This document shows positions 11,032 through 63,343 of a stretch of 64,000 nt of DNA, piece by piece. The notes below the pieces were generated by a model. The model was not told the origin of the DNA. It did no database searches and worked only from the letters and a program-made list of their open reading frames with translations. How positions within the stretch are numbered: the first letter of the stretch is position 1; each line of letters starts with the position of its first letter. This stretch comes from Coprinellus micaceus (lineage: Eukaryota > Basidiomycota > Agaricomycetes > Agaricales > Psathyrellaceae), in NCBI GenBank assembly GCA_951394405.1, contig OX596338.1, positions 3,844,001 to 3,908,000 of the forward strand, read 5' to 3'. The translations under genes were made by a program, and so were the position numbers.

Positions 11032-11626
11032 ATGCTTCCCTCTTCCCGCAGTCCTCGAATTTACCGGAATCAATTGGCACAGGGAGCCAACGAGACGCTC
11101 ACCATCGAGCTTGATGGTGAACCAGTCGGACGTCGATTGACCTTGCAAACGAGCACCGGAGCTACTTTGGTCGGTCATATTGGATAGGGGCTCACAGTCG
11201 TCTGTAGCTAAAAACTTATCCCTATCTAGACATACACAGGAGGAGGCCAGTTGGCTGTTCGCTTGAGATCCGCCACGGCGCCAACCTTGTACTCAGTCGG
11301 GTCTGGTGCGGGGCAAACGGCATCTGGGCACAGCCCCAGCGTATCTGCAATCCTGGAAAGCTATGGAGACCCTCAGCCCCCTCCCAGGTTTACCCCGAGC
11401 CCAGATGTAAGGACACCTTTATTTAAACTCTCCTTTGTCAAGCTGATAACCGACCTCCTATTGTCTTAAGGATATCCAACCTTTTACGCGTGCTCCTGGA
11501 TTGTTCAGTCGCCTCTGGACACTCGTGTGGTCGTGGTTCCGCCACACACCACCTCCAATTGCGATCAACGCCGGCGGCGAGGAAGGGACGGGGATTTGTC
11601 CCCACGGTACAAGATACTTTCACTAG
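11032..11626 (+). CDS. Small three-exon array gene, subfamily B, member B1
   Basis: Exons 11032-11169 (138 nt), 11230-11406 (177 nt) and 11471-11626 (156 nt) give 156 residues. Both introns (60 and 64 nt) are GT-AG and phase 0. Exon 1 holds NETLTIELDGEPVGRRLTLQ then TSTGATL at the splice site. Exon 2 starts TYTGGGQLAVRL, is Ser/Ala/Pro-rich and ends YGDPQPPPRFTPSPD. Exon 3 holds LFSRLWTLVWSWF, an amphipathic or membrane-apposed helix, and ends CPHGTRYFH. There is no signal peptide. A TATA-like box (TATATAAT) lies 46 bp before the ATG. Exons 1 and 2 have exactly the same lengths as in B2 and B3. The family is unknown to me; the gene model is supported by the three-way match of exon lengths, splice phases and protein motifs. 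A TTAAGCGCCC motif follows at 11831. Confidence 0.82.
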
Positions 11627-13506
11627 CTTCAGACCAGGCACAGGTTTGCAGGGCCAGTACATGTAAGGGTATGGAGCGGCTCGAGCCATAAGACCCCTCC
11701 TTCCGCGCTGTGGCTGTCCCCGTATCACCCTAGAATTCAACTACATGCATTTATTCGGGAATCTTATCCCTTTCAGCAGGATAGATACCGCTCACCGCTT
11801 CATAAGGGTGTTTAAAGCACGCACCGCGTATTAAGCGCCCGTCCTGGTGATCGCCACGTGGGGTCGGGCAAGCGGTGCCGCCGACTACCGCCGCCAGGGC
11901 CGGCGCAATCAATGCATCTTTCCTTTCAACCACCACCCCCAACCCCCGCTAAGGCTGACTTCAGTTTGTCACCCAAAGAGAATCCACACTCCTTGCAGGG
12001 CGTCTACAATGCACTCGCCGTGGTCTCCTTTATCTAGCACGCCTCCCGACAAGCAACTGACCGTGTGTCTCGCAGATCCCTGATCTCTTGTCTTCTCTGA
12101 TAAGACTGAGAACGACGGAGATAGGGTCGGAAAGAGCCTCTTCCTCTGTGTAAGCAACTCGCGCGGCACCTACCTCACCACTTCACCATTCCTGACCTCC
12201 TCCTGCATCTCACCCTCGTCGGCTCCCCAGGCGCCAAATTCAAGCACTTACACCCTACTACGCTGGGCATCGAGGGGAAGACTCTCTGCGTCGCACGGAG
12301 CTGCTGCAACGACACCGACGATCTCAACGCGCGTCCTGTGTTCGTACGGACGGCTTTGTGCAGAGATTCATAATTTTGGGCTGCGTCCCGTTCCTGTGCT
12401 GGTATGTGTGACGTGGGAGACCTTGCTCTTTGAATACCTGGGTACGTTTTACGCGATTTTTGATCGGCCCTGGTTGGCTCCCAGACCAGGCTCCTTGGCT
12501 AGCGCTCTACAAGTGGGCACTATCCCTACCTATCAGATCCCACTTGGACCCCAGCACCCGACGTGATTCGAGTCTAGAATCTCCCGTCCCTCTCAAAGTG
12601 CCTTCCTTCTCTCTCATTCGTCGACAGCACGTTTACTTAGGTAGGCAGGAATCGACCCTCTCGATTAGGTTCGACGCCTGGCCAGCGTCAAATCGCACTC
12701 GTCCTGGAGGTGACCGAAGCGAGCGGAGCCAAGGGGGAGGTGCTTCCAATGCACCCTCAGTCGGTTCTACTAGCGACGATGCCTCTTGTCTGCCGACGCG
12801 GAGCAGTATGACTTGGACCAGCCTGCTATAACTGCGTTTTTAGCAGCCGGGGTGACACAAGTCTCGCTGTATTGCTTGGTACGACCCGGGTGAGTTTCGC
12901 ATTTGTGCTGCCCGTTCGCTGGTGGTCACATTGAGATTCACTCGCGCGCACTCTCTCGCTACTCTAGGCTAGTGAAGCTAGTGCGGCAATATAGTACCCC
13001 TTGTGGAACGGCAGGTCATGCTGTTATGCCTCCATTGTGTTCGTGGGCCGGGGTATTCTCGTGCCCTCTTCCCGTAGATTAGGACGCCACTCCTGTACAC
13101 TTGGACTAATTTCGTAGATTGGGAGATCAGGGAACCACCTTTCACTTCGGAGCGAGGAATCACCCTTTATTTGGGAGGACGAGGAATCACCTACTCATTT
13201 CGAAGGTTGGGAAACCAGTCGCGTTTGTTTTCTAGGTTGCCTACTCTCACAACGTGCATCCCTTGTCGATGTGCTCCAGAGCGAACGATCCCTCCCACCG
13301 GGTTTACGTTCTTCGAGAGAATGGTGTATTGGCGCTTCGTTTGTCAGAAGACCTCGTATCCCAACTCCTAACCCAATCCCTCCATCAAACGGTAAGTAGC
13401 CAGCCACGATAAATATCATTCCCTCGTCATTTCACTGTTCGTGACCCTCATTGGGATAGGGTGGTGGGTTGACATGTCATTTACCGCTATGCTTCATCTG
13501 GGTAAG
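11627..13506. other. Intergenic, decayed sequence
   Basis: No gene recognised. TTAAGCGCCC at 11831 is one of about a dozen related motifs in the window, here 205 bp after the B1 stop. Short open frames exist on both strands but none has introns, motifs or paralogues in the window that would support it. Confidence 0.45.
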
Positions 13507-14400
13507 GTTGGCGAGAACTGCACGGTCAAAAATCAAAAATCAAAACGCGGATCGAGTCTTCGACTCAAGCTTCTTCGTGGGAGGCCCTTGTTTCTGAGGC
13601 GTTTTGGGTCACGATTGGTTGTTTTATGGCCCTAAAGCCCCATTATACGCTTCCTGGAACATATTTGAGGTCGTCCTGGCTCATTTTGTACAGCTTCCAT
13701 CGAGTCTCTGAATTGCAGGGATCGGGCTTTAGTGTACAAGAGCCCCAATCACTGTGCTACAGCCTAAAGTACGTATCTCCAGACTCCTACATGGATTGAT
13801 GTGCAACTGGGATGTCCACGAATGCATTGCAATGTCGTACTGACATACCCGAGCTCTTCCTTATTACCCAGTCACCCAAAACCCCAAGTATACCTCACTA
13901 TGAGGGGCTCGGGGATAATGTGATGGCAGTGCCCGACCCTCCTTTGAAGCTACCGGAGCAGTGTGTGGGGCATGGAAGTTTATTTCTATCTCACTATTCG
14001 AATGTTCACGCTTTGTTTACCGCATAAAAAAGGTTTCTATGGTCCACGGATATTGCTACAGGACTATAACGGGGTACAACGGCATGTAGCGCAGACGCCT
14101 ACGCCAGGGCCAGATCCGGCTGAAACGGGAGTTCGAATTCCGCCAGCGTGCAGTTCCGGCTAACACTACTCACCTCCCCCGTGTAGACCACCACCCTCTA
14201 GGGACTAATACAGGGACCAGGACGTTCAAAACGTGATCGCATTTCCAAAAGCGAGCAGGAAACCCATGCATCCGCCAAGACACATGGTATATAATGTATG
14301 CACGCACCGGGATTCGAAACCTGTGCTGGCCCATTACACTCAGGGGAATCGAAAACGAAAACGCGAAATCCAAAATTTCGACCGTGCAGTTCTCGCCAAC
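13507..14400. mobile_element. Inverted-repeat element (MITE- or SINE-pair-like)
   Basis: GTTGGCGAGAACTGCACGGTC occurs at 13507-13527 and as its exact complement at 14380-14400; weaker similarity continues inwards. The 850 bp between has no long open frame. Two interior sites resemble Pol III B-boxes (GAGTTCGAATTCC near 14130; TTTCGAATCCC on the minus strand near 14315). It is either one non-autonomous TIR element or two tRNA-derived SINE copies facing each other. It ends about 130 bp upstream of the A1 promoter. Confidence 0.45.
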
Positions 14401-14637: not shown

Positions 14638-15167
14638 ATGTCGATTCCAATTCCAACTCCCACCGGTCCCGACAACGATGCCAAAGGGTTCTTCTTCGAA
14701 GTCGACTCGAGTGGCCGAATCCGTCTCGAAGACCACAACGCACCTTCAAGGACCCAAAAAGTGACCTACATGAAGGATGCCCTCACCGGAACTACTTTCG
14801 TATGACAGCATTGTCGCCAATGTCCTCGGGTCCTCGCAACTGATGTGTATTTCCAGAAATATTGCTCGGAAGGCGCTAAAATAACGAAGGCCGCGACGTC
14901 TATAGCGCACTTGGACGGTGTATCGATGATGAACGGATCGAATAACGCTGAAGCCCAACCTTCTCAGAATACCGTTGGGCCAAGAGACGAGCGAACCGTG
15001 CAAGTCGGGTTTAACCACGTACGTTTTTCTGTTCCCGTTCGCCATCGACGCTGATCACCGACTCATCTCAACAGTGCTGCTTCCATCTGCTCCAGCCCAT
15101 GGAGACCATCTTTGAACGCTTGAAAGAATATTTTCGATGGGAGAGACAGACGAACGAGGGAACCTGA
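14638..15167 (+). CDS. Small three-exon array gene, subfamily A, member A1
   Basis: Exons 14638-14799 (162 nt), 14857-15018 (162 nt) and 15075-15167 (93 nt) give 138 residues, with two phase-0 introns of 57 and 56 nt. Exon 1: GFFFEVDSSGRIRLEDHNAP, then ALTGTTF at the splice site. Exon 2: SIAHLDGVSMMNGSN and, at its end, TVQVGFNH. Exon 3: CCFHLLQPMETIFERLKEYF. No signal peptide or membrane span. A TATA-like stretch lies at 14534-14540. The start is the ATG nearest to the conserved core; the frame is open further upstream, but the paralogues also begin 10-20 residues before GF[SF]xE. TTAAGCGCCCG follows at 15346. Unknown function; the model rests on agreement with A2, A3 and A4. Confidence 0.82.
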
Positions 15168-16750
15168 AGAGCCGCCCAAGAATCCAGAGTCGCATAGCCT
15201 ACGATACAGACTGCGGCATGATCGGATACATCCATCACATTCGCTTCAAATTTCTATGTACTTGTTTCTGTCATTTAAGGAGAAGAACTCGGGTATCGGG
15301 CTCACTGGGGACATACGTGCCACGCAAATGGATCATGTGCGCGAATTAAGCGCCCGTTCGGAGATATTCGGCAGTTTCCGGTGTTTGCCCCACGTCGACT
15401 CTCCCATCAGTCGCTCCTTCGTCAGCGTCTGTCATCTCTAGCGAGCATCTACCAGCGATGGCCCTCTACACTTGCGCAATCTTTGGAATAGGCCTGCGAA
15501 ACAGAAACTTGGTCACAGAGAGCCCGTCGATTCTCTCGAATTGTACGCAAAGGCATCCAAGGACGACCGCGACCAGCTACATACAACGAATACGACGAGG
15601 GGACGCCGTAATAAGGAGATAGAGATGGGGAGGGAATGGAATGGGGCACCGCGAGTACGCGGAGATACTTTCGTCGAAGATCCCTTGACCATCGATCGAC
15701 GCATGCATCACTTCTTCCTCTTCAGACCTCTCTCATGAATCCTCCCGGCGCTGACCTCGCCTCATGAAATCTAGCCTAGCAAGTACGCAGCGATCCCCTC
15801 CCCACTCTCCCACTTGGCCGAGCCTCACTCACGCATCTTCCGCCATTTCAGCTCGGGTTCCACATCGACCTGCCGCACGTCCTCCCCGCCCCGGCACATC
15901 CCGCCCTCCAGAACCAACACACTCGACTCTAGACCCCCACCACCCGCACCCTTTCACCGGCATCACGCCAAGCCCTCCATGTCCAACACAAGACTCGCCT
16001 CGCCTCGCCAAATTGCCTTCGTTCGGCAGGCTAGCATCAAGTTGCCAATCTAAGCCCACCCATACTCTCACATCCCGCCCGTCCTTCTATTACCCTCCCG
16101 TTCGTCCCCCTACCCCCTTCTATCTCGTAACCGGAGACCCATCTCGCAAAGCAGCACATGCTTGACGAACACTCCTCCTGGGGTCGTATCACCCAAGCAG
16201 AGGTGCACCCCACCTCGGGTTTCTTGATACAACCCTGGCGAGTGTCGCGGTTATGCATACCTGCGACCGGGTGCATTCAAGCCCTCGGCCTCGCGTCTGA
16301 ACAATCGCAAGACGTCGTCTCCTCCAGTGTTACGCGTCAGTGGCATCGCAAGGACTCCCGGTCAGCGCAACGCTACTCGATGCAAATCCCGCTCCTCCCG
16401 CTCGTAATCAGCTGGGCCCCTTCAACCCAACCTTCTTTCGCCACCGCACCCTCACGGATAGTTCAAGACCGTGGCGAACCCCAGACCTTCCCAACCAAAC
16501 ACGTTGGTCTTACCCCCATCGCCGGACGGCGTAGACCCCTCCTCTCCGGATCCTCTCGACACTGTCCTGGCTCCTCGTCATCGTACGGTCTCGTGAGGAC
16601 TCGTATTGCGAATTTCAGACGCTCCACCGGCTCGCCTTTTCCACAGCCGGGCACTCCATCGACTCACTGTTCCAACGATCTGGCCTTGTGCCCAAGTGCC
16701 TGGCCTCAGGATCCTAGCACTAGGGTACGCTCTGCGCGATCCTTTAGTGA
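15168..16750. other. Decayed intergenic DNA with hairpin repeat
   Basis: No intact gene. TTAAGCGCCCG at 15346 lies downstream of A1. 15760-16170 is C-rich. A GGGGTCGTATCA...TGATACAACCC hairpin repeat begins at 16180. Long open frames on the plus strand here come from C-rich, stop-poor composition, not from a recognisable gene. Confidence 0.45.
16180..16236 (+). repeat. Dispersed hairpin repeat, copy 1
   Basis: GGGGTCGTATCA at the left pairs with TTGATACAACCC at the right, and GAGGTG pairs with CACCTC inside, giving a nested hairpin of 57 nt. Three other copies are in the window (17525, 17721, 46165), all on the plus strand. Identity unknown. Confidence 0.6.
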
Positions 16751-17500
16751 CCCATCGTTGACTCTTGATACCATAGCACTCGATGAAGACGCATTTGAAT
16801 ACTCGGAAGACGCATCGTCGCAGTCGGCTTCCTCTCCTCGGTCGAACCTTGTCCTCGGGGGGCCCGCAATGGCCTACGTATGCCATCAAAGCAGCGGAAA
16901 ACACACCCTCCATTCCGCTTGCCTCTCGCCCCGTCATTACCTGCCGCCCCTTCGTCGCCGACGCCCTTGGAAACCCCGAAACCGCGCAACTCATTCTTGG
17001 CGACACTTCCTATACACCATCGACCCATCCCTCTCCCCTCCTTGGAGCCTTGATCCACAACCCCTCCTCATCCACTGTCCGACCCTCATCAGTGCTTCAA
17101 GGGGCCTCCACGAATCACAGGCTCGCCAACCCACACGCAACGATCCTATCTTCACCATCTTGCAGCGTAGAGCTCTTCTGGTGCATGGAGTCGCGGCGTT
17201 CACACCGACTAACGACTATCCCACATCACCCCGTCTGCGGCATACATACGGATCCCGACCATACCCAGCGAAATACGCTACCCCACCCACAAGCTCTCTC
17301 TGCCTTTTGCTACCCGGGATCCCCCCCCCCCCCCCCCCCCCACATCCCTCGACGTCTCGACGCCTGAACGAAACCCAAACGCCCTCCCACCAGTCCAGGG
17401 TGCTTCAGACTTCCTTACCGATGGTGCGTTGGCGCTAGAGCACCTCCGCAATCGAGGATTAGAGCGAGCTCCGTTGAGCTCCGTGGCACAGGGCAGGATG
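16751..17500 (+). pseudogene. Decayed gene remnant, paralogous to 23335-23700
   Basis: A plus-strand reading contains RPVITCRPFVADALGNPETA followed by QLILGDTSYTPSTHPS. The same stretch recurs, changed, at 23500-23600 as HPIITYRPFVVEALEYPETA. Conservation at codon level in both copies suggests it was once coding. Parts lie in different frames (an acidic part around 16780 and a last part ending near 17510), and a run of 21 C at 17321-17341 lies between, so the present sequence is broken or split by introns I cannot place. Function unknown. Confidence 0.4.
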
Positions 17501-17720: not shown

Positions 17721-17775
17721 GGGGTCGTATCAGTCAAGCCGGGGCGTACCCCACCCTGGGTTTCTTAATACGGCA
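17721..17775 (+). repeat. Dispersed hairpin repeat, copy 3
   Basis: GGGGTCGTATCAGTCAAGC at the left, inner GGGGCGTACCCC palindrome, then GGGTTTCTTAATACGGCAC at the right. It lies about 950 bp upstream of gene A2. Confidence 0.6.
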
Positions 17776-18715
17776 CTAGCGACTGTCGTGCTTGTGTAGT
17801 AGCCCTTCGACCGCCCACGCTCTGCATGACTTCCAGGTTCCTCGGAGGCGTGTCCCGTCGACTCAACTACATGTCGGTGACATCACGAGGACTTGCCACC
17901 ACTGCACGCACTCTGATGCAAGCGGCTCGGATACACTACCTCTCTCGGCTGTCTCTTGGCGTCCTGCTCACCAGAGGAGGGTGCGGAGCCAGTGTAGATT
18001 AGATTAGATAGTCATACCTACCTGATGTAGCCGCCAGCATGTATGTAGCGGAGTCGATATCATTCCTTGCCCTGACGCTGCACCGGGGTGCTCCATTTGC
18101 TCTAGTAATTAACCACATTCCAGCTCCCGAAGTACCGAGTAAGTGATGACTAGCCTTGGCTCCCCTTATTTCCGATTTGTTCACCTTCCTGCAGGACCCG
18201 CCGGGCTTCGCAAGGGGATGTAACCAATCGTCAAGCTGGGGTGTGGCCCACTCTCGCTTACAAATCGAGGGGAATCTCAGATATCGCTAGAAGACCCTGG
18301 ATCCAGCCCGACTTCCATATGAAACTCACCGAAAACTAGCGAGCCCACCGCGTTTTCCAGTGAGCAAGTTCAGTTAGATCTTGGAAGGCGGATGGTGAAA
18401 ATTCTTCATAAAGTATCGAATCGACTGGTCCCGAAGCACCGATGTAGAGAGAACACAGAGAGATTCCGGGGAAGACGGGTACGAGCTGTGGTGCACTATG
18501 GCGGTGCCTAAGGTTCGCACGCTCCAACAGACAGTGGCCACTGGCAATCATACAAACTATACTTAGTTCTGGTCATGGTCCCGATGTGGTCCCTTGGCCA
18601 ATTTGGTGGATCCATTCGCCAAGTCACCACAATGTAGTACATAAAAGCGGTAGCATCCGCCCAACGCCCTCCCCCAATTCCGTTTGCGAATTCAAATTCC
18701 ATTGCAGTCCCTGCC
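17776..18715. other. Intergenic, promoter side of A2
   Basis: No gene recognised. ACATAAAAG at 18639-18647 is the probable TATA element of A2. Confidence 0.45.
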
Positions 18716-19271
18716 ATGACCAGTCCGTCTTCTCTGCAAATGTGCACTGGGTTCTCTGTCGAGTTCGATTCCACGGGCGCATTTCGTCTCAATGATTACA
18801 GCACCCCGTCACAATTCCGCGACTTTACACTCCAGGCGGCTGTACCCCCTGGAACGACAGTGGTACGTCGACCATAGCCGTCACGCGCAAGAGATTGGTG
18901 CACTCATACTCACGCATTCTTGGAACATTGTAGACGTACCGCTCAGGCCGCACCACAGCGTCAGTTGCACAGCTGGAAGGCGTGTCAATGGTCAACGGCC
19001 CAAGCATGACCGGCACCGAGAATACAAGCCCGCCCCCTTCGTCGAGTACCAGTCCCACTGGCGATAACCGAAACGTGCAGGTCGGGTTTAACCACGTACG
19101 CCCTTCTCTTGGCTATATTTTCCGGCTTATACACTACTTATGGCCGTCCCACCTCAGTGTTGCTTTCACCTGTTTCAGCCCGTCGAAGCCGTCGTGGAGT
19201 GCATCAAGAGCTTCTTTGGAGCTCGCGGAAGCCCCGATGGAAATACGAGAGAAAGTTCCTATGGCACTTGA
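18716..19271 (+). CDS. Small three-exon array gene, subfamily A, member A2
   Basis: Exons 18716-18862 (147 nt), 18934-19095 (162 nt) and 19158-19271 (114 nt) give 140 residues; introns are 71 and 62 nt, both phase 0. Exon 1: TGFSVEFDSTGAFRLNDYST, FRDFTLQAAV, ending PPGTTV. Exon 2: TYRSGRTTASVAQLEGVSMV, a Ser/Pro/Thr-rich linker, then NVQVGFNH. Exon 3: CCFHLFQPVEAVVECIKSFF. Exon 2 has the same length as in A1. TATA-like ACATAAAAG lies about 70 bp upstream, and TTAAGCGCCC 252 bp after the stop. No secretion signal. Function unknown. A decayed copy of its exons 2-3 lies at 23911-24125. Confidence 0.84.
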
Positions 19272-22135: not shown

Positions 22136-22754
22136 ATGGACGCCATGCCCCCTGCTGCCAGTGACCCACAATTCTGCGTCGAGTTACGGGGGGGAAACGA
22201 GACGCTCACCATGAAGGGGAGCGAGCTCTCCGGACGCCAGTTGACCTTACGAACTAGTACCGGAGCTACGGTGGTCAGTCTTTCCCGGATGGATATCTTC
22301 TTGAATCAGTCAGCAGTGGTGGCTAACGCTCGACACTCTGTCCACATCCAGACATACTCTGCAAGCCCCCAGCCGATAGTTAGCCCGATATCCGAGCACC
22401 TGGTGGCACGGTCGCCTCCAGTCGATTCCAGAGCGGTGCCAACGCCAACTCGGCGCAGTGCCAGCATGACCTCGTGGCTGGAGGGCTACGGGGATCTTCC
22501 TCCTCCCAGAGTCAGCCTTGCCCAGGATGTAAGGCAAACCCCATCCTCACCCCCTTCTCGCTGAGCTGAGCTGATAGACAACTCTTCCCCCTTCTTAGAG
22601 TATCTTACCTTCCCTGTGTGGCATCGGGCCGCTAAACAACCTATGGGCACGTGTGAAATCCTGGTTTGGCCCCGACTCGCCCCCAGTCACGGCCAATGCA
22701 GATAGGGGAGAGGCCACGGTGCTCTGTCCTCGTGGCGTCACCTACTATCAGTGA
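22136..22754 (+). CDS. Small three-exon array gene, subfamily B, member B3
   Basis: Exons 22136-22273 (138 nt), 22352-22528 (177 nt) and 22599-22754 (156 nt) give 156 residues; introns are 78 and 70 nt, phase 0. Exon 1: QFCVELRGGNETLTMKGSEL, GRQLTLRTSTGATV at the splice site. Exon 2 starts TYSASPQPIVSP and ends WLEGYGDLPPPRVSLAQD. Exon 3: PLNNLWARVKSWFGPDSPP, then CPRGVTYYQ at the C-terminus. Exon lengths equal B1 exactly. A second ATG three codons in is an alternative start; the first gives the 138-nt exon seen in B1 and B2. TATA-like TTTATAAAC lies about 35 bp upstream. Function unknown. Confidence 0.82.
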
Positions 22755-23334
22755 CTTAGGTTCAAGTGATGAACGACCTCGCCACATGAGAAGAGCATAG
22801 GGACCCGCTGTTCCTTAGCGGCCTCATGTCGTATGCGACCTCCTCACGTCCGCCACCTAGGGAGGCCAAAGTGACTGTGATCCAACGGCACAAGGGTGCC
22901 TATCGTCCTCGCCATCCGTGTTCCAATCTGCTCGCTGTGCATGAAATTGATATTATTGTATTTATGTATTTATTTTATTTAAGCCTCGCCCCACGCTCGC
23001 GTCTATGACGTACACGCACTTCCAGGGCCCATTGTGGCTCATTGAGACACCTGGTGGAGTGTGTGATCGAGGATTGAGGTTGCCCGGTGCAGGCGACGGG
23101 CAGGGCAGACGGTGGTGTCCTCTCAAATGTTTGGTGCTACTACCACCCAGGCGATTTAACCTTGTCCGACTCACAGTGGTATTGATTTGTTCGTCTCGTC
23201 CAAAGGCCGCGGTAGCGCGTCCGCTATTCTTCATGCATCTCTCGGATGCGGTCCCTCAGAGTACCACGGTGCGTTCCACCTGTTTTATTTTGTTTTATTT
23301 ATTTCCCTTCGTTGACTCCCAATCCAGTGCTTGA
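22755..23334. other. Intergenic, nothing recognised
   Basis: AT-rich patch at 22940-22985 followed by ordinary sequence; no gene, repeat or RNA recognised. Confidence 0.45.
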
Positions 23335-23700
23335 TGCAGACGGATCTGAATAATTGAAAGACACAACGTCGCAGTGAGCTTCCTCTGCTCGATCGAATCT
23401 TGCTCCTCGCGGGCTTCGGGCTTCGGGCTTCGCAGTGACTTACCTACGCCGTCGGTGCAGCCCAAAACGCGCCCTTCATTTTCTCTCGCCTCTCACCCTA
23501 TCATCACATATCGCCCTTTCGTCGTCGAGGCCCTTGAATACCCCGAAACTGCAACCCACTCTTAGCGACGCCTCCTATACACAATCGACACATTCCCTCT
23601 CCTCTCCTTCTGGCCTTGATCCGACCACCTATGTCCCACCACGTACATCGTCGTCGTCATCTTACACTCCCTAGTACCATGAAAACTGCAGCCTAATTCT
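23335..23700 (+). pseudogene. Second copy of the decayed gene remnant
   Basis: Aligns by eye with 16780-17060 over about 250 bp, sharing the words CGTCGCAGT, CTTCCTCT and a CGCCCTTTCGTCG segment, with roughly one base in five changed and several indels. A stop near 23563 interrupts the frame that is open in the other copy. It lies just upstream of a decayed A-type gene, as the first copy lies upstream of A2. Confidence 0.45.
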
Positions 23701-23910
23701 GTCGCGCCGCAGTTCACCATTTATGCAACCTTGCAGTCGCCTCTCACCGACGCCTGAGCTCTCGACCTCGCATCTGTCGAATCACAAGACGCGCCATTGC
23801 ACGATCCTTCCCTCTAGTGTTACGCACCAGTGGCAGCCGGAAGACTCTCACCCACCATACTACTCCCTCTACACAACGCAGCTCACCCACATACGACGGA
23901 ATATTTGTAG

Positions 23911-24125
23911 ACATATCTCTCAGGCCGCACCACAAATGCCAATCGCACAGGTAGAAGGCGTGGTCAACGGCCGGGGTAAAACTGCCCCCTCGTCGTGTAC
24001 CGGCTTCCCTGACGATAACCAAACGTGCAGGTTGGGTTTACCCACGTACACTGGATACCCCGGTTATGGCTGTTCCTTTGCAGTGGTGGTTTCCCCTGTC
24101 CGAACCCGTCGGAGACACCGTCTAG
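23911..24125 (+). pseudogene. Decayed subfamily A gene fragment (exons 2-3)
   Basis: After TTTGTAG, the sequence from 23911 matches A2 exon 2 (CTCAGGCCGCACCACA, then GTAGAAGGCGTGGTCAACGG) and ends at 24045 before GTACAC where A2 has its donor site. 24084 onward matches exon 3 after CTTTGCAG, including the Pro-Val codons, but reaches TAG at 24123. The exon 2 part is 135 nt instead of 162 and carries frameshifting indels. No exon 1 is recognisable. It is most like A2. Confidence 0.72.
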
Positions 24126-25812
24126 CGCGTCCAGAGCTCCTTTGGAAGCCGCGGGAGGCCCGATGGAGCTCCATCCATCGCAAACTTGAAATTAACGACC
24201 AAAGGTGCCCCAGTGATAGGCGCCGTACCTAAAACGCCATGTGAAAAATTTCCACAGCTGCTCGCGATGACTGGGTCCCGTCCAACCATTTTAATTCGAA
24301 ATTGCCACCCAAAGACGCTTTCCAGAATGCATGTGGTAGATTAGCACTTGAGCACCGATATAAGAACAAAGGTGGTCTATTCACCGCTATTTAATTGAAG
24401 TTGTAGGCTATGCACCGCAGTGACCCTACCCTGAAGAACATCACGTGATACACCCGCCACCTTTATCTCAGTGTTCCCATAGGACAACGCGGGCTGTGCG
24501 GATACTATCACCCTCAAAAAGTCCCCTAGGACCATAACTACATCTTACTACCTGGAAAATGGTTAAGGAGCTGGGCCTGTCGACATCTCGAAGTGTTCCA
24601 ATTTCACAATGTCCGAACCCTAATGGCTCCTTCGTTTGATGCTGAATTTCTCCCAACTTCTCAGAAAGCACCACAGAGCACCTTTTCTACACACTCACGC
24701 ATCAATCTGAGCCTTCCAACATCTCACCCACTCTCAGCGTAAGGTCACCACTTAGGCGCCCATAATTCACATCACGTGAGATAATTGAGTGTCCGCCAGC
24801 GGCCAGATTCAGCGCATCATCATCAAACGTTTCACCCTCCAATGTATCGGATCCAGAAAGGGTACCCGGGTACCCCCACGTGACGCGGGTACCCCTCCCA
24901 CCAACCGCCTCCGAACGGCCCCACCTCCCCTTCCTGGAAGTCGCGCCCCTGTCTACCCCCCTCCGAGGGCCCTCCGTCGACGGGCGATCGGGCGCGTCCC
25001 CTCCGGCGCTCGCCTGTGTCCCGTTCTGTTGTAAACCCCGCGTGTTCTGAACCTTCCGACCTCCCTATCCCCTGTCGTACCTCTTCGTCTGTGCATACGA
25101 TCGTTCTGTAATGCAAATGCTTTGTTTTGTCTGCAACGATGGCGACACCAGTTCCTGGCGTGCTGAGTCAGAATGTTTGCACGTGTGGGTGCCTGCCTGA
25201 TTCGGCGCCCCGCTCATTGTCGCCATTGCACCCATGCACGACGGGCGCTTAACTCACGATTGCGTGCACCTATGCCTGCACGGGCCGTCTGCGACCCCTA
25301 TCCTCACGCCTTCCAAGAATCCAAGTCGACTCGTGCGCCCTCCCACCACAACGCTCCTCAACGCACAAATCTCGGGGTGAGAGCAATGGCGTGAGGGAAG
25401 TAACGGCGGGAGGATGACGTTCAACGAAAGCGAAAGGTATGTCCATTACTCACTCAAGACCTTAGACGCAGACTTATTTCGCCCTCTGCAGCCCATACAC
25501 GCCCCACGCGGGGCATCCCTTGCTCAACCAGCACCCTATACCAAGCTCACAGTCGCCTCGATGGCTCAATCAGACTGGTCCGGCGCATGCCCCACACCAC
25601 CCTTCCCTTAGGAAGCCACCGTCGACCTCGCCTCACCAACTCCAGCTATTCCGAGATGAAAGGGCGAAGGGACTCATACAATGGTGTGACAATTACAGCG
25701 AGGATGGATCCGACTGGAAGACCCTGCGGCACAGGTGCAAATGCCATAGGTACGTTTCCTTCACTTCTAGCCACATTAACGACATTAATCTTTGTACAAT
25801 AACCATGAGCTA
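24126..25812. other. Intergenic, nothing supportable
   Basis: TTAGGCGCCC at 24752 and its reverse form GGGCGCTTAA at 25246 are the only recognised signals. 24860-25030 is GC-rich (GGGTACCCGGGTACCC near 24858). No gene recognised. Confidence 0.4.
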
Positions 25813-28103: not shown

Positions 28104-28348
28104 TCATTTAGATGCAGGGGTTGGTGGGGCAGAGGCGCCTTCGAATAACTCATCAATGGTAGACCAAAGCCCCAGCCCCATCTCCCACCGAGTGGACTTT
28201 TCCCCCATCATCTTGAGGTACTTCGCCTTACTCTTCTTCTTCAACTGCTTCTCTGTGCCGAATTCATTGTCAACATAGCGAAACATCACGCCTGCCGTGT
28301 ACTGGGTAAACGAAGCGCGTGTCTCGTGATCTTGAACTGGAGTGCTAC
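28104..28348 (-). pseudogene. TET/JBP-like dioxygenase, 3' part beyond the chromovirus
   Basis: Immediately left of the chromovirus, a minus-strand frame reads TRASFTQYTAGVMFRYVDNE and ends at the TGA at 28104-28106 after a Lys-rich tail. It continues, in frame once the element and one copy of its 5-bp target duplication are ignored, from the frame at 36093-36415. It carries the Arg (codon 28317-28319) that in 2OG-Fe(II) dioxygenases binds the 2-oxoglutarate carboxylate. See the entry at 36093-37426. Confidence 0.75.
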
Positions 28349-28944
28349 TGTTACGCTTCGCTTCACATGTTTTGTAATATGCTATTATTTCTATTTTTCA
28401 TCGAGGACTTATTCTTTTTCTTTCAGCAAACTCTTTTGTATTAGTATTTGTGTTTTGGTTAAGTAGTTGACTCTCATTGACTTGTTATTACGTTTATAGA
28501 GTCATCTTATTTATGACTCATACTCGACTCATACTTAGTCTGTTCCGACTAAGTCTGACCAGTCTCTGACTGTAATCGACTCATTAGTTATATTGACTCT
28601 TAGTTATTAGTGACTCATAGCGACTAGTATCCATGGGTATATAAACCCTTTAGATTAGACCCATGTACTTTAGCTTGTTATATTTTTCCCCACCTATTGA
28701 ATAGTGCCTTGTGCCAAAACCCAAAGACAACTAAGAGCAAGCCAAGTAAAGCCAATAAGACAACGACCAACGCCTAAGTCCAAGTGAGCTATTGTCAACA
28801 TAGTTCTTGGTAGTATCAGATACAACGATCGTCAACATCGTACTCGATACCAAGCTAAGTAATCATTATAGTATTAACTATTGACCTGCCCAGAGTCGAC
28901 CAATTGTCGGACACTTGTCCAACTCCCTCATCGAGGTCATAACA
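28349..28944 (+). repeat. Chromovirus 5' LTR
   Basis: Starts TGTTACGC and ends AACA. Contains the promoter: TATA box TATATAAA at 28638-28645, preceded by many GACTCAT-like words, two of them perfect bZIP (Gcn4/AP-1) sites, ATGACTCAT at 28513 and GTGACTCAT at 28610. Transcription is expected to begin near 28670. Confidence 0.95.
28638..28681 (+). promoter_or_regulatory. LTR core promoter and predicted 5' end of genomic RNA
   Basis: TATATAAA (28638-28645) lies 27-34 bp before AGCTTGTTAT (28672-28681). That decamer is the exact complement of the site just inside the LTR (28947-28956), so the RNA's own 5' end could serve as the reverse-transcription primer. Confidence 0.6.
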
Positions 28945-28956
28945 GAATAACAAGCT
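28945..28956 (+). promoter_or_regulatory. Self-priming primer-binding site
   Basis: Two bases after the LTR's CA end lies ATAACAAGCT (28947-28956). It does not resemble the 3' end complement of any common tRNA primer, but is perfectly complementary to 28672-28681 in the LTR at the expected RNA start. This is the arrangement of the Tf1/sushi chromoviruses, which prime with the 5' end of their own RNA. Confidence 0.65.
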
Positions 28957-29005
28957 CCACTATTACGTTGCCCTCCTCAACGAGCGCAACGACGGCTCGC
29001 CCAAC

Positions 29006-34458: not shown

Positions 34459-34544
34459 CTCTAGAGACCAACCAATCCATCCTGTCTACCCCACTCTACC
34501 ACCCAAAGCCAATTCCGTTTCATAACATCTACACCTTTTTAAAA

Positions 34545-35465: not shown

Positions 35466-35496
35466 ATCAGAGTTTCAAAGTTTGTAAAGGGGGTAA

Positions 35497-39690: not shown

Positions 39691-40019
39691 AGGAGGTCGG
39701 GGTCGGGGCGCTCGAGTCTTCACTCCAACGAAAGTGGGTGCCACAGATTGTGTCAGCGGGAGGGGAAGGGAACAACAAGGGCTGGTGAGACTCGAGGATG
39801 GCGCTCGAGGCGGGGGGTTGAAGTGGGTGGTGGACGAGGAGGGAAGAGGGAGGTCGAGGAAAGACCCTCACAGGGAAGGGACGAGGAGGGTGTGAGGCAG
39901 AGTGGAGGATGTGACGGTGTGAAGAGAACCAAGGAGCCTCCACAACGCCCGCATCTCCTCCGCCTTCCGCTTCACAGCGTACCCGCCTTCTCCATCCACG
40001 CCCCTGGTCGCTGTCTCCG

Positions 40020-40890: not shown

Positions 40891-41017
40891 GACACCCGAC
40901 ACGACAAACGTGCAGGGCTCAGATGAGAGGACAATGAGGATGGGCAAGGAGGGGGACAAGGGGACAATGAGGATGGGCGGGGAAAGGGGACGTGGACGGG
41001 CATGCTTGAACGGTGAT

Positions 41018-41157
41018 GGACAGACGCGCATTTGAGAAGTGGGAGGGACAGACGTGCATTTGAGAAGTGGGAGGGACAGACGTGCATTTGAGAAGTGGGA
41101 GGGACAGACGCGCATTTGAGAAGTGGGAGGGACAGACGCGCATTTGAGAAGTGGGAG
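41018..41157 (+). repeat. 28-bp minisatellite, five units
   Basis: Five head-to-tail copies of GGACAGACGCGCATTTGAGA plus AGTGGGAG, differing only at one base (CGCG or CGTG). Non-coding as far as can be seen. It lies about 300 bp beyond the 3' end of the Crypton gene. Confidence 0.95.
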
Positions 41158-41470
41158 GGATGGGAACGAGGAGGAGGGGAGGGGACTTGACGCGACAATG
41201 GCGACGGCAAGGGGACGAGGACGAGGATGACAGGATGGTGAAGACGACGAGGACCGGAACGAGATGAGGATGGGGGTTGGGGAATGAGGGTGATGATGAA
41301 AGAGGACAAGGGCGACAGGGGCGAGGATGGGGACGTAAGGGACTTCGAGGAGGGGCAGTCAGGGAGGGCGGGTCTGTGTTGAGACACTTGAAGAGAGTGG
41401 GAGAGTAAAGAGTGTATTCTTGTTGTAAGTAGTGCATGAACGTAACTATATACAAGGTTCAAGTAAAGCA

Positions 41471-46164: not shown

Positions 46165-46221
46165 GGGGTCGTATCAGTCGACTTCAGGTGGTTCTCACCT
46201 CAGGTTTCTTGATATGACCCT
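46165..46221 (+). repeat. Dispersed hairpin repeat, copy 4
   Basis: GGGGTCGTATCAGTCGACTT at the left, GATATGACCCT at the right, inner AGGTGG/CACCT pairing. The following 100 bp also resemble the sequence after copy 3 (TGTAGCCC). Confidence 0.6.
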
Positions 46222-48131
46222 GGTGCGCTCCGTGTTCATGTAGCCCACTGACTAGATCGGCCACACAGCGAGATAGGGGGCTTCACCGACTGGGCTCATC
46301 GTCACGCTTGATATGGCCTCGAGAACCACCCCGTCTCGCATTCCCTGACGCTCAGGCTCAATCCACCCCATTTCTTATCAACCCCCAGCCTCGACTTCGC
46401 ACTTGGACAATTGGAATACGTGTTGTCACAGCATCCACTGCCCAAGCCTTGCGTGACCGTGACATCGTGAAACTCTCTGCCCTCATCGTTCCACCGACAC
46501 GGCACAGGTCAACCCCAGAGTCGCCTGACCGCTGCACCACCCTTACACTTCGCCTCCCCTCATACCCTCGTCAACTCCACCCCCCATTGGATACCAACTC
46601 CTTGAGGTCATCGCAAACCCCAGATCATCCCCATACTCCCCACACTCCCCCAGGCAAAGGCGTCACCCTCGCGATCACTCGTCACACCGCAGCTCATCGC
46701 TTGGTCAACGAGCAACTCGAGAATACCTGGATCACTCCAGCTTTCTCTCCATCACCACTCTCCGAGCATCTATTACACCAACTATGGGCACCAAGGGTCG
46801 TGCCGTGCCTCGTGTCGTGTGCTGCACTATCCCTATCGATAATCGCGAGGGCAAATGGAAATGTCTTGGTCGTCACGAGTCGCGAGCGGCCAGACAATTG
46901 GGTCCGTAAGTAGACCTTTCCTTCCAGTGTGCTGAGAGATGACTTGGCCATATACCACCACTCTGATTGTTGTGCAATGACACTGAAGCTCTTCTCTACC
47001 ACAGTGCCTAAAGGTGATTGGGGGCTGTCACTGTGGCGGCACCCACGCCGTCTCTCTCGACACGTTGACACCCTCGCTGGGGCGCCGGCACCGACGAACG
47101 TAACGCATCGGTTTTCCTTATCGGCTACCGACTTCATACCTTCTCCGTCAACGTCTAGATATGGCCTCGGGAAGGACGCCCTCGTGATACCAGGGTAAGT
47201 TCTGCGTGATCCTTGGGTGAGCCATCATTGATCGTCGAGCCAGACCTCACCCAGCGCTGAATGGAGAGAAATTGCACTCTGGTGCCTTCTGCTAGTCGGG
47301 TATGTCGCATCGGCACGATTTCGACCTCCTTAGGCCTCAATGACGCCCAAGAAATCAGAACCCGCTCTCTACCATTTCAACACCGTCTCACTCCTCACCT
47401 CATCATCGCCCATCGCCTAGTATCGAATTCTTTGGGCACTTTGAATCCACAATTCACTCGTGATGCTTTCGTACACCAATTATTCATCCTCCCTCCTCTC
47501 CTTCCCGCCTTCACTTACCTATCCATCCATCCATCCATCCATCCATCCATCCGATATCGACGAGCCCTATCCCAGAGACATAACCGCGATGTTCAAAAGG
47601 GGGAGGGGACGACAACGTAAGAACGCCACCCTCCTACTAATGGTCAGAATGGACAATGGTATCGTCAGCCACCAAGGGAGGCGGTTGAAAAACCTCGACT
47701 AAAATTCGAGGTGATCAACTACCGGGAGATAAGTAAATGAGGGCTGAGCTATACGGGTTACGCATGACAGACAGAAGGTGGCTGGTCACCATTGCGATGG
47801 AGACTACACGGAGCCAGAGCAATAAAACAGTTGACAAACCTCGACTAGTGCTTGAGGTGGAATGCGGAGCTACCCGCGCTGCGTGTGGACGGTAGAAGCC
47901 GGATATCAAGCACTGGTGACCGTGGTGTGTTCAGGAGCCAGTGCGCGCAATCATAGTTGTCGGAAGAGCGAGAGAATAGAGACTCAGGAAAGAGATCAAC
48001 CAAGGTATGCACGGAATTTTCAAGTTCCTTGTAACCGCGTTAGGCAAGTGCAACCCTGCCCCGCGACTGAATTTATTATGTAGCAGTGTTTCTGCCCGTC
48101 AAGTGTCATGTGTACCTGTATAGTGGCCAAT
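46222..48131. other. Decayed intergenic DNA with ATCC microsatellite
   Basis: No intact gene. An (ATCC)8 microsatellite lies at 47521-47552. The stretch from 46300 to 46700 has distant similarity to 16300-17000, part of the same decayed repeat family. Confidence 0.4.
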
Positions 48132-48479
48132 CGTACCGTCACAATGTGATACAACATTTTCCCCGCCGGCCTCAGTACATGTCGCTCATAATCAAGCAAG
48201 CATGTACTCGCTTATTCGTACATCACAATGTGATACAACATTTTCCCCGCCGGCCTCAGTACATGTCGCTCATAATCAAGCAAGCACGTACTCGCTTATT
48301 CGTACGTCACAATGTGATACAACCTTTCCCCCACCGGCCTCAGTACATGTCGCTCATAATCAAGCAAGCACGTACTCGCTTATTCGTACGTCACAATGTG
48401 ATACAACCTTTCCCCCACCGGCCTCAGTAGACCTGGTCACTACATGTCGCTCGCTCAAGCAAGCAAATACTTCCTTATT
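48132..48479 (+). repeat. 84-bp tandem repeat upstream of gene B2
   Basis: Four direct copies beginning at 48132, 48217, 48301 and 48385 (84-85 bp each, the last diverged). Each contains TCACAATGTGATACAAC, with the palindrome CACAATGTG, and CATGTCGCTCATAATCAAGC. The array ends about 70 bp before the B2 TATA box (48551), so it sits where an upstream activating region would be. Confidence 0.95.
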
Positions 48480-48593: not shown

Positions 48594-49200
48594 ATGCCTC
48601 TCTCTTCTAACACTTCTCGATTCCATCCCCAGCAGCCGGAAGGCGCCGGCGAGACGCTCACCATCGAGCTTGACGGCGTTGAACTGGCCGGGCGCCGATT
48701 GACCTTACAGACTAGCACTGGAGCTACCCTGGTCAGTCTTTCCGGACATGTGTCTTCCTGACGCAGCCTGCAGTCATCTGCAGCTGATGCCCTATCCGTA
48801 TCCAGACATACACAGGAGGTGGCCAGTTGGCTGTAAAGCTCATATCCGCCGCTCCACCAAGCTTGTCCTCAGTTCAAGAGTCCGGAGTGGTACAAACGAC
48901 GACTGGACATAGCCCAAGCATATCCACGGTCCTGGAAGGCTACGGTCTCCCTTTTCCTCCCACGTTCAAACCGAGCACTAATGTAAGGACAACCTCATAT
49001 TCAGCTGGTATTGGCCGAGCTGATCGAAGATTTTTGGTTCTGTTCAGGATGCCCTACCCTCCCCGCGTGCTGTTGGGTCATTCAACAATCTTTGGACTCT
49101 CGTTAGGTCCTGGTTCCGTCGCCCAGGTTCAATCACAGCCAACGTCGCCCGTGGAGAAGTCACGGAACGATGTCCTAATGGTGTCATGTACTATCAGTAA
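48594..49200 (+). CDS. Small three-exon array gene, subfamily B, member B2
   Basis: Exons 48594-48731 (138 nt), 48806-48982 (177 nt) and 49048-49200 (153 nt) give 155 residues; introns are 74 and 65 nt, both phase 0. Exon 1: GETLTIELDGVELAGRRLTL, QTSTGATL at the splice site. Exon 2 begins TYTGGGQLAVKL as in B1 and ends YGLPFPPTFKPSTN. Exon 3: SFNNLWTLVRSWFRR, then CPNGVMYYQ. It is the closest relative of B1. TATATATA lies 43 bp before the ATG, directly after the 84-bp repeat array. Function unknown. Confidence 0.84.
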
Positions 49201-52519: not shown

Positions 52520-53065
52520 ATGCACCCCATATTCTCCTTTGAACTCGACTCTAGTGGAGGTATCCGCCTTGAAGACCACGACTCGGCGCGGGATTCGAAG
52601 GTCCGGGAATTCACGTTCCAGCGATCCTTGGTCTCAGGAGCCATATTGGTGCCATGCTCGACTCGTAGGGCAGACATTGATTCACCTACCTTCATTCAAC
52701 CTTCGCGCAGAGCTACTCTTCTGGAGACCCTACCAAACCCGGCCCAGCATCAATAGCCCAACTTACTTGAAGGGATATCAATGACGAACGGCTTCGGACA
52801 TCCTTCCCCCGAGCCTTCTCAAAATATTGGGATTGAGCCAAGGAGCGAGCAGACACTACAGGTCGGCTTTAATCATGTACGCTTCTTCCACGGGTCGATC
52901 GGAGATCTCATAAGTGGACCAGGACTAAACCTTTCTTAGTGCTGCTTCCATGTCTTCCAACCACTGGAGGCTATCATTGACCACGTCAAAATTTACTTCC
53001 AGCGCGGGACAAACACCACCGAGACCATGAATCGACAGGCTGGGGAGCAGCTAATATCCATATGA
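52520..53065 (+). pseudogene. Small three-exon array gene, subfamily A, member A3, frameshifted
   Basis: Exons 52520-52648 (129 nt), 52711-52876 (166 nt) and 52940-53065 (126 nt) with phase-0 style splice sites (introns 62 and 63 nt). Exon 1: IFSFELDSSGGIRLEDHDSA, REFTFQRSLVSGAIL. Exon 2 begins SYSSGDPTKPG, and after SIAQL an ACTT tandem duplication (CAACTTACTTGAAGG near 52757-52771) makes it 166 nt instead of the 162 nt seen in A1 and A2 and gives an early TGA. Beyond it the family motif LEGISMTNG and LQVGFNH are intact in the shifted frame. Exon 3: CCFHVFQPLEAIIDHVKIYF. A TATA-like box is at 52473. Everything else looks functional, so the break is recent, or a sequencing error. Confidence 0.8.
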
Positions 53066-55221: not shown

Positions 55222-55727
55222 ATGCCACCTTCCCCTTCTCCTGAAAGTCGCCCAGGCTTTTCCGTGGAGTTCGATTCCACAGGGAGATTCCGCCTCGATG
55301 ACCACAGCATCCCAGCACAGCCGCGCGATTTCTCGTTTCAGACAGCCACCCTCTCTGGGACAACTGTGGTGCGTCCATCACGATTCACACAGGACGATGG
55401 CGGACCCAAGCTCACCTACAACTACTGACATCCTCGTAGTCATATCGTTCGGGAGACCAGGTGGGCCGTGCGGCGACATCAATCTCTCAGCTTGAAGGCA
55501 TTTCGATGGTAAACGGACCTAGTAGGGCCGGAACGGAGGAGGGAAGCCAGGTCCATGCAAGCATGAGCCCACCCGGTGACAACCACACCACTCAGGTTGG
55601 GTTTAACCAGGTACGCCTTCCGCAGTTGTCGAGCAGGCATGGGCCGTTGATACTTCCTCAGTGTTGCTTTCACCTGTTTCAGCCTGTTGAAGCAATCATA
55701 GAGCGCATCAGGGGATACCTTCGATAA
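55222..55727 (+). CDS. Small three-exon array gene, subfamily A, member A4
   Basis: Exons 55222-55368 (147 nt), 55440-55610 (171 nt) and 55662-55727 (66 nt) give 127 residues; introns are 71 and 51 nt, phase 0. Exon 1: GFSVEFDSTGRFRLDDHSIP, PRDFSFQTATLSGTTV. Exon 2 begins SYRSGDQVGRAATSISQLEG, then ISMVNGPSRAGTEEG and TTQVGFNQ. Exon 3: CCFHLFQPVEAIIERIRGYL then Arg and stop, the shortest tail in the family. It is the closest relative of A2 (exon 1 the same length). TTAGACGCCCAAGC follows 183 bp after the stop. Function unknown. Confidence 0.84.
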
Positions 55728-58838: not shown

Positions 58839-59380
58839 ATGCCTCCACCTCCCCCAAAGCAGCGGTCTGGATTTTCCTTTGAGAGATCCGACGCCGGGGG
58901 GTTGCGTCTGGACGATGATGACTCGAGTCCTTTTTGCAAGGCTCGAGACTTCACATACCAGACAGCGTTCCTGGCCGGTACCAAGCTTGTGAGTCCTTAT
59001 GATGTCCCTGCTCTGCCAGACATATTCTCACACGTCACGAAGAACTATCGCACTGGTGATCGTCAGAATTTGGCGACGGCGCTGTCAGAAGATGTGACCT
59101 CCACTGACGTCGCTCGTTCCTCTGAGTCCGCATTCGCCCGGGTGTCCAACCGGGCCCGCAGGGGCTGTGGGGTCGTCCTGGCTAATGTAAGTGGTTAAAA
59201 CCTCAACGGGGCGGTCACGGAATGAATGTTCAACACCATTTTCTAATCTCCTAGTGTCACTATTACGTCTTTTACTGCCCTTTCGAGATGTTCGAGCATC
59301 TTCGCCGGCGCTTATTCCGTGCGCCAGACGACGATACCAACCGAGGCAGTGAAGTCGAGGCAGTGGCGACGGAGCATTGA
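58839..59380 (+). CDS. Small three-exon array gene, subfamily A (diverged), member A5
   Basis: Exons 58839-58988 (150 nt), 59043-59186 (144 nt) and 59255-59380 (126 nt) give 139 residues; introns are 54 and 68 nt, phase 0. Exon 1: RSGFSFERSDAGGLRLDDDD, ARDFTYQTAFLAGTKL. Exon 2 begins NYRTGDRQNLATAL, matching the TYRSG start of A2, but lacks the LEGxSMxNG motif and ends VVLAN. Exon 3: CHYYVFYCPFEMFEHLRRRL, aligned with CCFHLFQPVEAIIERIR, then an acidic tail. TATATAAG lies 40 bp before the ATG. The same intron positions and exon 1 motif place it in the family; exon 1 is nearest to that of C6. Confidence 0.8.
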
Positions 59381-62300: not shown

Positions 62301-62701
62301 AGCTAGTCCCGTCTGTTCTAGAACGCTGTTGAGAACATTCCGACGCGAATCATCCCTCACCCTCGAGCCGCACTGCTATTGACGCAATCCCCATACGGGG
62401 ATGCTTATGAGCTACGAGTGAATACATCGAGGAGCCGCGATAATGCACTTGGTGCCTTGAGGCTTTACAGCATCGCGAACAGGTGGCGATTTCCAGTTTT
62501 CAGGGTCGGTTGGCCCTGCATAAATTACGTGTAAACGGGATCGGTGCGTGACAGGTCCCTATATCGGAAACACCATTTATGGAACCCCGTATTGGCGAGC
62601 GGGAAACTCAAGAAGATATGATCGGGAGTCTTTGACGAGGGACAACCTCCTGTAATACATAGCCTCTCTCCTCTATCCCGTGTATCCATCCCATCCTCCC
62701 A
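59381..62701. other. Intergenic, nothing supportable
   Basis: About 3.3 kb with only short open frames. GTAAGCGCCC at 61576. No repeat longer than a few bases, no RNA gene and no family member recognised. Confidence 0.4.
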
Positions 62702-63343
62702 ATGCCCCTCTTCTCTCGCAAGCATCACGGATTCTCCTTCAAACGCGAGGCCAACGGCGGCGTCGACATCAAAGACGACAGGACTGCGCGTCGCGACTTC
62801 AAGTTCACATCAAACCTCTTTACTGGGACGTCTGTGGTGAGTCGAAGCAGTAGTCCTATGCGATCCCACGTTGCGCAGGCTTCGATCTTGGTAGAGCCCT
62901 GCTGATATGCCTACCACCTTCCTAGATGTACCAGACCGACGGTGATCATAAGCCGGCGCATACACCGACGCCATCGCCGCCCACACCGCTCACCTGGCCC
63001 CCGCCAACGCGGCAGGGCACAGGCTCCTCCATATTTGACGCGTACAACGCTCCCCCTACCCCAGGTCCGTACCATGATCTCGAGGTACGCAACTACACAC
63101 AGGCTCGTTCGGATATTCCGAGCTGACCAGCGATTGGACCGTCTGGATGATCCGTTACAGCCCTCCTTCGGCCTCACCGAGTTGTTTCGCCGCATATGGA
63201 CGCTCGTCGGGGTCTGGTTCAGCTACACTCCTCCTCCCCTGCCCATTCCCTCGCTGACACCCCTCCCCCCGATTGCGACACCCGCGGGTGAACGAGCAAA
63301 CCTGTCGCAGTCCTGCCCCGGTGGTACATACTACGTTAACTGA
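62702..63343 (+). CDS. Small three-exon array gene, A/B chimera, member C6
   Basis: Exons 62702-62836 (135 nt), 62926-63084 (159 nt) and 63161-63343 (183 nt) give 158 residues; introns are 89 and 76 nt, phase 0. Exon 1 is A-type: HGFSFKREANGGVDIKDD, RRDFKFTSNLFTGTSV at the splice site, closest to A5. Exon 2 is proline-rich, TPTPSPPTPLTWPPP, and ends SSIFDAYNAPPTPGPYHDLE, like the B pattern (SISTVLEGYGLPFPP). Exon 3 is B-type: LTELFRRIWTLVGVWF, a proline-rich insert, then CPGGTYYVN as in B1-B3. No clear TATA box. This gene links subfamilies A and B. Function unknown. Confidence 0.82.

Follow-up and report, generated by a model that had tools for sequence, protein, structure and literature searches.

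A cluster of nine three-exon genes

The window (the whole stretch of DNA analyzed, 64,000 nucleotides) contains, at positions 11032–63343 of the plus strand, a cluster of nine three-exon genes (A1–A5, B1–B3 and C1) and one A-type fragment. The cluster opens with B1 (11032–11626; exons 11032–11169, 11230–11406 and 11471–11626; 156 aa), followed by A1 (14638–15167; exons 14638–14799, 14857–15018 and 15075–15167; 138 aa), A2 (18716–19271; exons 18716–18862, 18934–19095 and 19158–19271; 140 aa) and B2 (22136–22754; exons 22136–22273, 22352–22528 and 22599–22754; 156 aa). The fragment (23905–24167) is devoid of exon 1 and is 66% identical over 315 columns to positions 18928–19241, corresponding to exons 2–3 of A2. 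Further along lie B3 (48594–49200; exons 48594–48731, 48806–48982 and 49048–49200; 155 aa), A4 (52520–53065; exons 52520–52648, 52757–52876 and 52940–53065; 124 aa), A3 (55222–55727; exons 55222–55368, 55440–55610 and 55662–55727; 127 aa), A5 (58839–59380; exons 58839–58988, 59043–59186 and 59255–59380; 139 aa) and C1 (62702–63343; exons 62702–62836, 62926–63084 and 63131–63343; 168 aa). The second exon of A4 has a later start than its counterparts in the remaining A genes. The nine genes and one fragment, all on the plus strand, that an earlier note on this DNA had described were thus recovered; every one of the nine models opens with ATG, ends at a stop codon and is free of internal stops.

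All 18 introns start with GT and end with AG, are 46–108 nt long and lie between codons, in agreement with the phase-0 introns proposed in that note, and in-frame read-through is impossible for 15 of them. The exon lengths given there also match the rebuilt models (138 nt for exon 1 and 177 nt for exon 2 of B1–B3, and 162 nt for exon 2 of A1 and A2). Exact conservation of exon length is confined to the B genes; in the A type, exons 1, 2 and 3 span 129–162, 120–171 and 66–126 nt, respectively. Exon profiles run against the window with 20 kb to its left and 30 kb to its right retrieved the same nine genes, all on the plus strand, with the next best match at an E-value of 0.066. Across the 50.3-Mb genome, all convincing matches fell inside the cluster, and the searches found no dispersed copies elsewhere.

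TATA[AT]A is present upstream of six of the nine genes, compared with 4.0% of random stretches, and either TATA[AT]A or ATAAA[AG] upstream of eight, compared with 7.8%; the gene without a TATA-like box is C1. The sequence TA[AG][AG]CGCCC, located 180–507 bp downstream of six genes, was considered as a family element and rejected: its short form also occurs in the flanks, and its longer form with CACGTG has 12 occurrences on eight contigs and hence is not family-specific.

The genes are surrounded by transposons and local repeats. One of these repeats (16158–17480, without an assigned strand), with partial copies at 23305–23884 and about 9 kb to the left of the window start, served as the control in the substitution test. 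An open frame within it (16158–17438, with local copies) was examined as a potential partner gene and discarded. Because its substitutions are equally distributed over the codon positions (0.30/0.29/0.30) and the lengths of most of its gaps are not multiples of three, it was taken as a non-coding repeat. Self-matches with starts in 7300–7850, 38300–41500 and 48100–48440 were left out of the listings of repeats and fragments. In the gene family, the differences between paralogues concentrate at third codon positions in each of the 12 pairs computed, and dN/dS, although dS is saturated, is 0.14–0.48 in the eight pairs with finite dS, and so not near 1. Set against the flat pattern of the control repeat, the third-position excess and the lower dN than dS support coding-type selection on the family, in line with the view in the earlier note that these are real, selected genes.

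A- and B-type exons and the hybrid gene C1

The modular design proposed in the earlier note is borne out by C1, a natural hybrid in which an A-type exon 1 is combined with a B-type exon 3. The two exons score 25.8 bits with the A exon-1 profile and 25.2 bits with the B exon-3 profile, while the best shuffles reach 8.5 and 7.0 bits, respectively. Exon 2 of C1 has no convincing match to either type (the best P of 18 comparisons is 0.026, uncorrected). A hybrid of the C1 type is present in C. micaceus as well (P0005, a relative of C1).

Direct similarity between the two types is marginal against shuffles. With the B exon-1 profile, P0001, P0003 and A2 score 11.8, 9.8 and 8.4 bits, compared with best shuffles (of 2000) of 11.2 and 7.6 bits. 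With the A exon-1 profile, B3 scores 7.3 bits against a best shuffle of 8.5, and with the A exon-3 profile 5.4 bits against 4.5. These values may reflect remote homology, and because they are marginal, the A and B types are joined mainly through C1. Exons 1–2 of the B genes were left out of the alignment of the B and C pieces.

Relatives and predicted protein features

Eleven relatives were found among 5.8 billion proteins: six from C. micaceus (FA13DRAFT_1777737, _1292733, _1714500, _677020, _1804037 and _1797031), one from C. aureogranulatus (NMY22_g6673) and four fragments that carry no species name. The named relatives have E-values of 4.5e-3 to 2.2e-47, and both intron positions are kept in the relatives. 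The earlier note had counted the lack of homologues with the same intron positions in other mushroom genomes as evidence against its reading; such homologues were found. In the tree, A2 pairs with its C. micaceus orthologue P0001 (support 95/93), and A5 with its orthologue P0002 (100/100). All seven named relatives belong to Coprinellus, so that the family appears, as far as searched, to be restricted to this genus. The searches depend on shared 5-residue words, and far relatives outside Coprinellus may therefore be overlooked. A plasmid search with P0001 gave no match.

The earlier note had also called the family undescribed, which holds for the libraries and searches used. Among the 15 members scanned, there was no credible Pfam match for the family, and no transposon domain, HeLo-type domain or known killer or incompatibility domain was detected; the best PDB match was an antibody chain with an E-value of 0.42. 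No paper was found for the three of the seven accession names that were searched, and searches of the available literature returned nothing on this Coprinellus three-exon family. The hypothetical proteins of Coprinellus (the FA13DRAFT_ entries and NMY22_g6673) are homologous to the cluster genes by sequence and share their exon junctions, but they are single database entries that carry no family description in the papers searched.

AlphaFold models of P0001 and P0005 have a disordered middle part and a C-terminal helix (residues 108–127 in P0001, and residues 104–120 in P0005 with block means of 81–86), and are weak overall (mean pLDDT of 50.9 and 55.5). In 14 proteins, no 19-residue window reaches a mean hydropathy of 1.0. 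Amphipathy of the helix varies: the shuffled-half P is above 0.05 in five of the 14 proteins (A2, 0.084; A4, 0.21; A5, 0.066; B2, 0.77; P0002, 0.052), and it is exon 2 that holds the best amphipathic stretch of A5 and P0002.

Origin and possible function of the cluster

Many diverged copies in the same direction at one locus, accompanied by a fragment, local repeats and transposons, are also consistent with a conflict locus for self-recognition, incompatibility or spore killing, in which the proteins would be renewed by duplication and by exon exchange as in C1, and the amphipathic terminal helix would be harmful. We regard this as unlikely, as dN is lower than dS among the paralogues, which is not the pattern of positive selection, the orthologous pairs A2/P0001 and A5/P0002 persist, and known killer or incompatibility domains have no Pfam match here. 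Fungal small secreted proteins are often small and orphan. The size of the products (124–168 aa) and their orphan status, a combination usual among such proteins according to PMC7105643, would suit an effector-like role, but across the 13 proteins with an exon 1 the best 11-residue mean of N-terminal hydropathy is only 0.99, and none has the hydrophobic N-terminus typical of a signal peptide. Secretion is thus highly improbable, and the observation in the earlier note that no secretion signal is visible stands on this hydropathy criterion. The least probable explanation, that the units are transposon remnants or repeated non-coding DNA, draws on the transposons and local repeats around the genes. 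It is already largely refuted by the absence of transposon domains from the Pfam matches, the lack of dispersed copies in the genome, substitutions of coding type, unlike those of the neighboring repeat, and independent gene models among other Coprinellus entries.

The A-type proteins offer a lead to amyloid signaling, for which the tests run gave no support. A core at the exon 2/3 junction (e.g. VQVGFNH) would template assembly in the manner of RHIM or PP motifs, with the adjoining helix as the output. The form [VLMT]-Q-[VIA]-G-F-N is present in A1–A4, P0001 and P0003, resembling the Q-[VI]-G-x-N core of fungal PP and mammalian RHIM motifs. The expression [VILMT]Q[VIA]G.N has four matches in 199,848 six-frame residues, all in these genes, but it was chosen after the motif had been seen. 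The PP core is printed as NxGxQxGxN in PMC9815663; by eye, four of its five fixed letters are present in A2 and A3, and three in A1, A4, P0001 and P0003, although the first G is absent from all six. The core is also missing from A5 and from the B and C proteins. The Pfam RHIM model PF12721, of low sensitivity because it is only 22 positions long, had no match in the genome at E-values up to 10 and none among the 15 members. The coding pattern for Q[VIM]GFNH occurs three times in the genome, always in the cluster, compared with once for a control pattern, so no receptor appears to share the motif. Among the matches listed (150 of 425 candidates scored), there is no NLR-type NTPase within 380 kb, and the cluster further differs from PP/RHIM systems in having no HeLo-type domain. 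According to PMC7889193, a RHIM may act from a central position, and NLR-independent fungal amyloids are an open question. A genus-specific family that paired a RHIM-like amyloid core with an amphipathic output helix within a single small protein, had no NLR and gained new combinations by swapping entire exons would amount to a self-contained and rapidly evolving mushroom system for cell death or self-recognition, which we consider very unlikely.

We favor, with a probability of about one half for the reading as a whole, a Coprinellus-only tandem family that diversified by exon exchange and encodes small, probably intracellular, regulated proteins that would dock through the terminal helix. 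The gene-family part is close to certain; helix docking is tentative, at slightly less than even odds. Intact models, selection, kept intron positions, orthologous pairs and the hybrid C1, all read directly from the sequence, point to growth by duplication and exon exchange. The family would have expanded in place at one locus by same-direction duplication, with whole exons exchanged across phase-0 introns. The products would be small, soluble and probably intracellular, with exon 1 forming an N-terminal β-strand module that would give specificity, exon 2 a putative disordered linker, and exon 3 a predicted amphipathic helix at the C terminus, close to conserved cysteines. This helix would dock onto a partner protein or the face of a membrane. 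The TATA promoters would make expression condition- or stage-specific. Proof of activity for either the terminal helix or the VQVGFN core would add a new small-protein module to fungal development or self-recognition.

Lineage-restricted tandem gene families are a kind known in fungi, and the cluster resembles them in being genus-limited as searched, clustered, composed of small and partly disordered proteins, and located in a transposon-rich region. As a compact case, with complete gene models at one locus and orthologues among C. micaceus entries, it opens the birth of orphan genes, through duplication and the exchange of exons, to direct testing in inkcap mushrooms. It differs from such families in its fixed three-exon plan, its phase-0 introns and its natural A/B exon hybrid.

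Gene models and coding evidence

The window corresponds to C5:3844001-3908000 of a 50.34-Mb genome assembled in 17 contigs; C5 is 4.6 Mb long, so the gene cluster lies away from the contig end. Nine ATG-to-stop models were rebuilt, each with two introns and all on the plus strand. The introns are GT-AG in 18 of 18 cases, measure 46–108 nt and all fall between codons, and read-through is ruled out for 15 of the 18 by length or by a stop. The nine plus-strand genes and one fragment of the earlier note are thus borne out by these models and by a tenth, A2-like piece at 23905-24167 that lacks exon 1. The lengths it gave for exons 1 and 2 of the B-type genes B1–B3 (138 and 177 nt) and for exon 2 of A1 and A2 (162 nt) are also correct; exon lengths are more variable in A-type than in B-type genes. 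Exon profiles run against 114 kb of sequence (window plus flanks) recovered the same nine genes, with the next best match at E 0.066.

In each of the 12 paralogue pairs computed, third codon positions carry the most differences (positions 1/2/3: A2/A3 0.31/0.16/0.55; A1/A3 0.40/0.28/0.65; B1/B3 0.27/0.27/0.48), whereas a non-coding control of similar divergence, the local repeat at 16158-17480 compared with its copy left of the window, is flat (0.30/0.29/0.30). The genes are therefore real and selected, as had been proposed. In agreement with this, dN/dS is not near 1 but 0.14–0.48 where dS is finite (A2/A3 0.14; B1/B3 0.25; B2/B3 0.33; B1/B2 0.38; two pairs containing the hybrid-type gene C1 0.45–0.48), values that are indicative only because dS is saturated, and infinite in 4 of the 12 pairs. 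Six of the nine genes have TATA[AT]A in the 130 bp before the ATG (4.0% of random stretches), and either this motif or ATAAA[AG] lies upstream of eight (7.8% of random stretches); C1 lacks both.

Relatives, age and genomic distribution

Successive searches of 5.8 billion proteins yielded 4, 4 and then 6 rows; in the final search three rows were repeats, which leaves 11 relatives (P0001–P0011): six from Coprinellus micaceus, one from C. aureogranulatus and four unnamed fragments. P0011 is a weak match (E 1.1) yet readable as B exon 1. Judged against the window exons, P0001, P0002, P0003, P0005 and P0006 are spliced at both junctions. P0007 and P0010 are spliced at junction 1 and read through at junction 2; P0009 is also read through at junction 2, and P0004, P0008 and P0011 are read through at junction 1. 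P0009 matches P0001 except for 20 extra residues placed precisely at junction 2, so intron 2 is present in its DNA. Both intron positions accordingly recur in relatives elsewhere. The longest contig listed has 275,009 bases for each of P0001, P0002, P0005 and P0010, and from this equality the four probably share one contig. In a tree of eight A-type proteins, A2 pairs with P0001 (95/93) and A5 with P0002 (100/100), so these duplications predate the species split. The species of the window is most likely itself a Coprinellus. Between the C-type proteins P0005 and P0007 of C. micaceus, exon 1 is near-identical and exon 2 less so, and the listed contigs differ in length; the two are possibly alleles.

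Genome searches with single proteins placed 6/6, 5/5, 8/9, 7/8 and 4/10 matches in the cluster, depending on the query; the remaining matches had E 0.69 (one), E 3.5 (one) and E 0.027 or worse (six), respectively. Only the best candidates were scored, so very diverged copies could escape. As far as searched, the genes form a real family restricted to the genus Coprinellus; in evolutionary terms it is of an ordinary kind, and its modular plan is unusually clear. Pfam scans and literature searches uphold the suggestion that it is undescribed and so far unnamed.

Exon modules and predicted products

The modular design noted earlier is supported by C1. The A exon-1 profile scores 25.8 bits in C1 and 22.8 in P0005 (best shuffle 8.5), and the B exon-3 profile 25.2 and 27.1 (best shuffle 7.0); C1 exon 1 reaches 0.2 on the B exon-1 profile, and P0005 0.4 on the A exon-3 profile, for which C1 exon 3 is unreported. 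C1 is therefore an A/B hybrid, produced by exon exchange and older than both species. Recognition between A and B is marginal (on the B exon-1 profile, P0001 beats all 2000 shuffles, and P0003 and A2 all but one), so the case for a single family depends chiefly on the hybrid and the common exon plan.

Pfam gave chance-level matches only (best E 0.13; in a further scan of 15 members, one reached 0.034), and the PDB search a single match, to an antibody chain (E 0.42). Across 14 proteins, every 19-residue hydropathy window stays below 1.0. The structural model of P0001 (mean pLDDT 50.9) contains a hairpin (14–18/24–28), a low-confidence region (39–105) and a helix (108–127), and that of P0005 (mean pLDDT 55.5) a single helix (104–120; block means 81–86). 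The helix is amphipathic in most, though not all, of the 14 proteins: the shuffled-half P is ≤0.05 in nine, 0.052–0.084 in A2, A5 and P0002, 0.21 in A4 and 0.77 in B2; the best amphipathic stretch of A5 and P0002 is located in exon 2. We favour a model in which these small proteins are regulated, reside inside the cell and would dock by way of their terminal helix; exon 1 would then confer specificity, and exon 2 would serve as a flexible linker.

A RHIM-like reading of the A-type junction core was also considered. The motif [VLMT]-Q-[VIA]-G-F-N lies at the exon 2/3 junction in A1–A4, P0001 and P0003, and the published PP core, NxGxQxGxN (PMC9815663), fits A2 and A3 at four of five letters and A1, A4, P0001 and P0003 at three. 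The corresponding expression, chosen post hoc, matched four window genes only in 199,848 six-frame residues, and the junction peptide pattern occurs three times in the genome, always within this cluster. The RHIM model matched neither the genome nor the family members scanned, and no NLR match lies within 380 kb among the matches listed (best 150 of 425 candidates scored). We regard this reading as improbable.

Neighbouring elements

Five plus-strand copies of a 55–90 bp element containing a long inverted repeat (resembling GGGTCGTATC...GATACGACC) lie near the gene cluster, at 16180-16269, 17721-17811 and 46165-46251 and, in the flanking piece L016, at ~525-600 and 1112-1199. Two copies fold better than 200 of 200 shuffles, and in the genome the strict pattern has two matches, each immediately left of the window. 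The motif TA[AG][AG]CGCCC, also found genome-wide, lies on the plus strand at 11832, 15347, 19524, 24753, 49707, 53394, 55911, 56447 and 61579; the genome holds 12 copies of a longer form containing CACGTG, 11 of them on the contig plus strand, versus none in the reversed control.

Between B2 and B3, a Ty3/Gypsy-type LTR element has inserted recently at 28346-36093; it carries gag and pol domains, and its 600-bp ends are 99.0% identical. Minus-strand frames at 41474-42824 carry GCR1_C and NDC10_II domains, a pair known from Crypton-type tyrosine-recombinase transposons. Two 384-bp direct repeats, 100% identical and 5.8 kb apart (2056-2439 and ~3.4–3.8 kb left of the window start), probably mark the two termini of a young mobile element that spans the window edge. 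A mitochondrial carrier domain lies in the right flank at L017 2355-2807, ~2.4 kb beyond the window end, next to repeated DNA.
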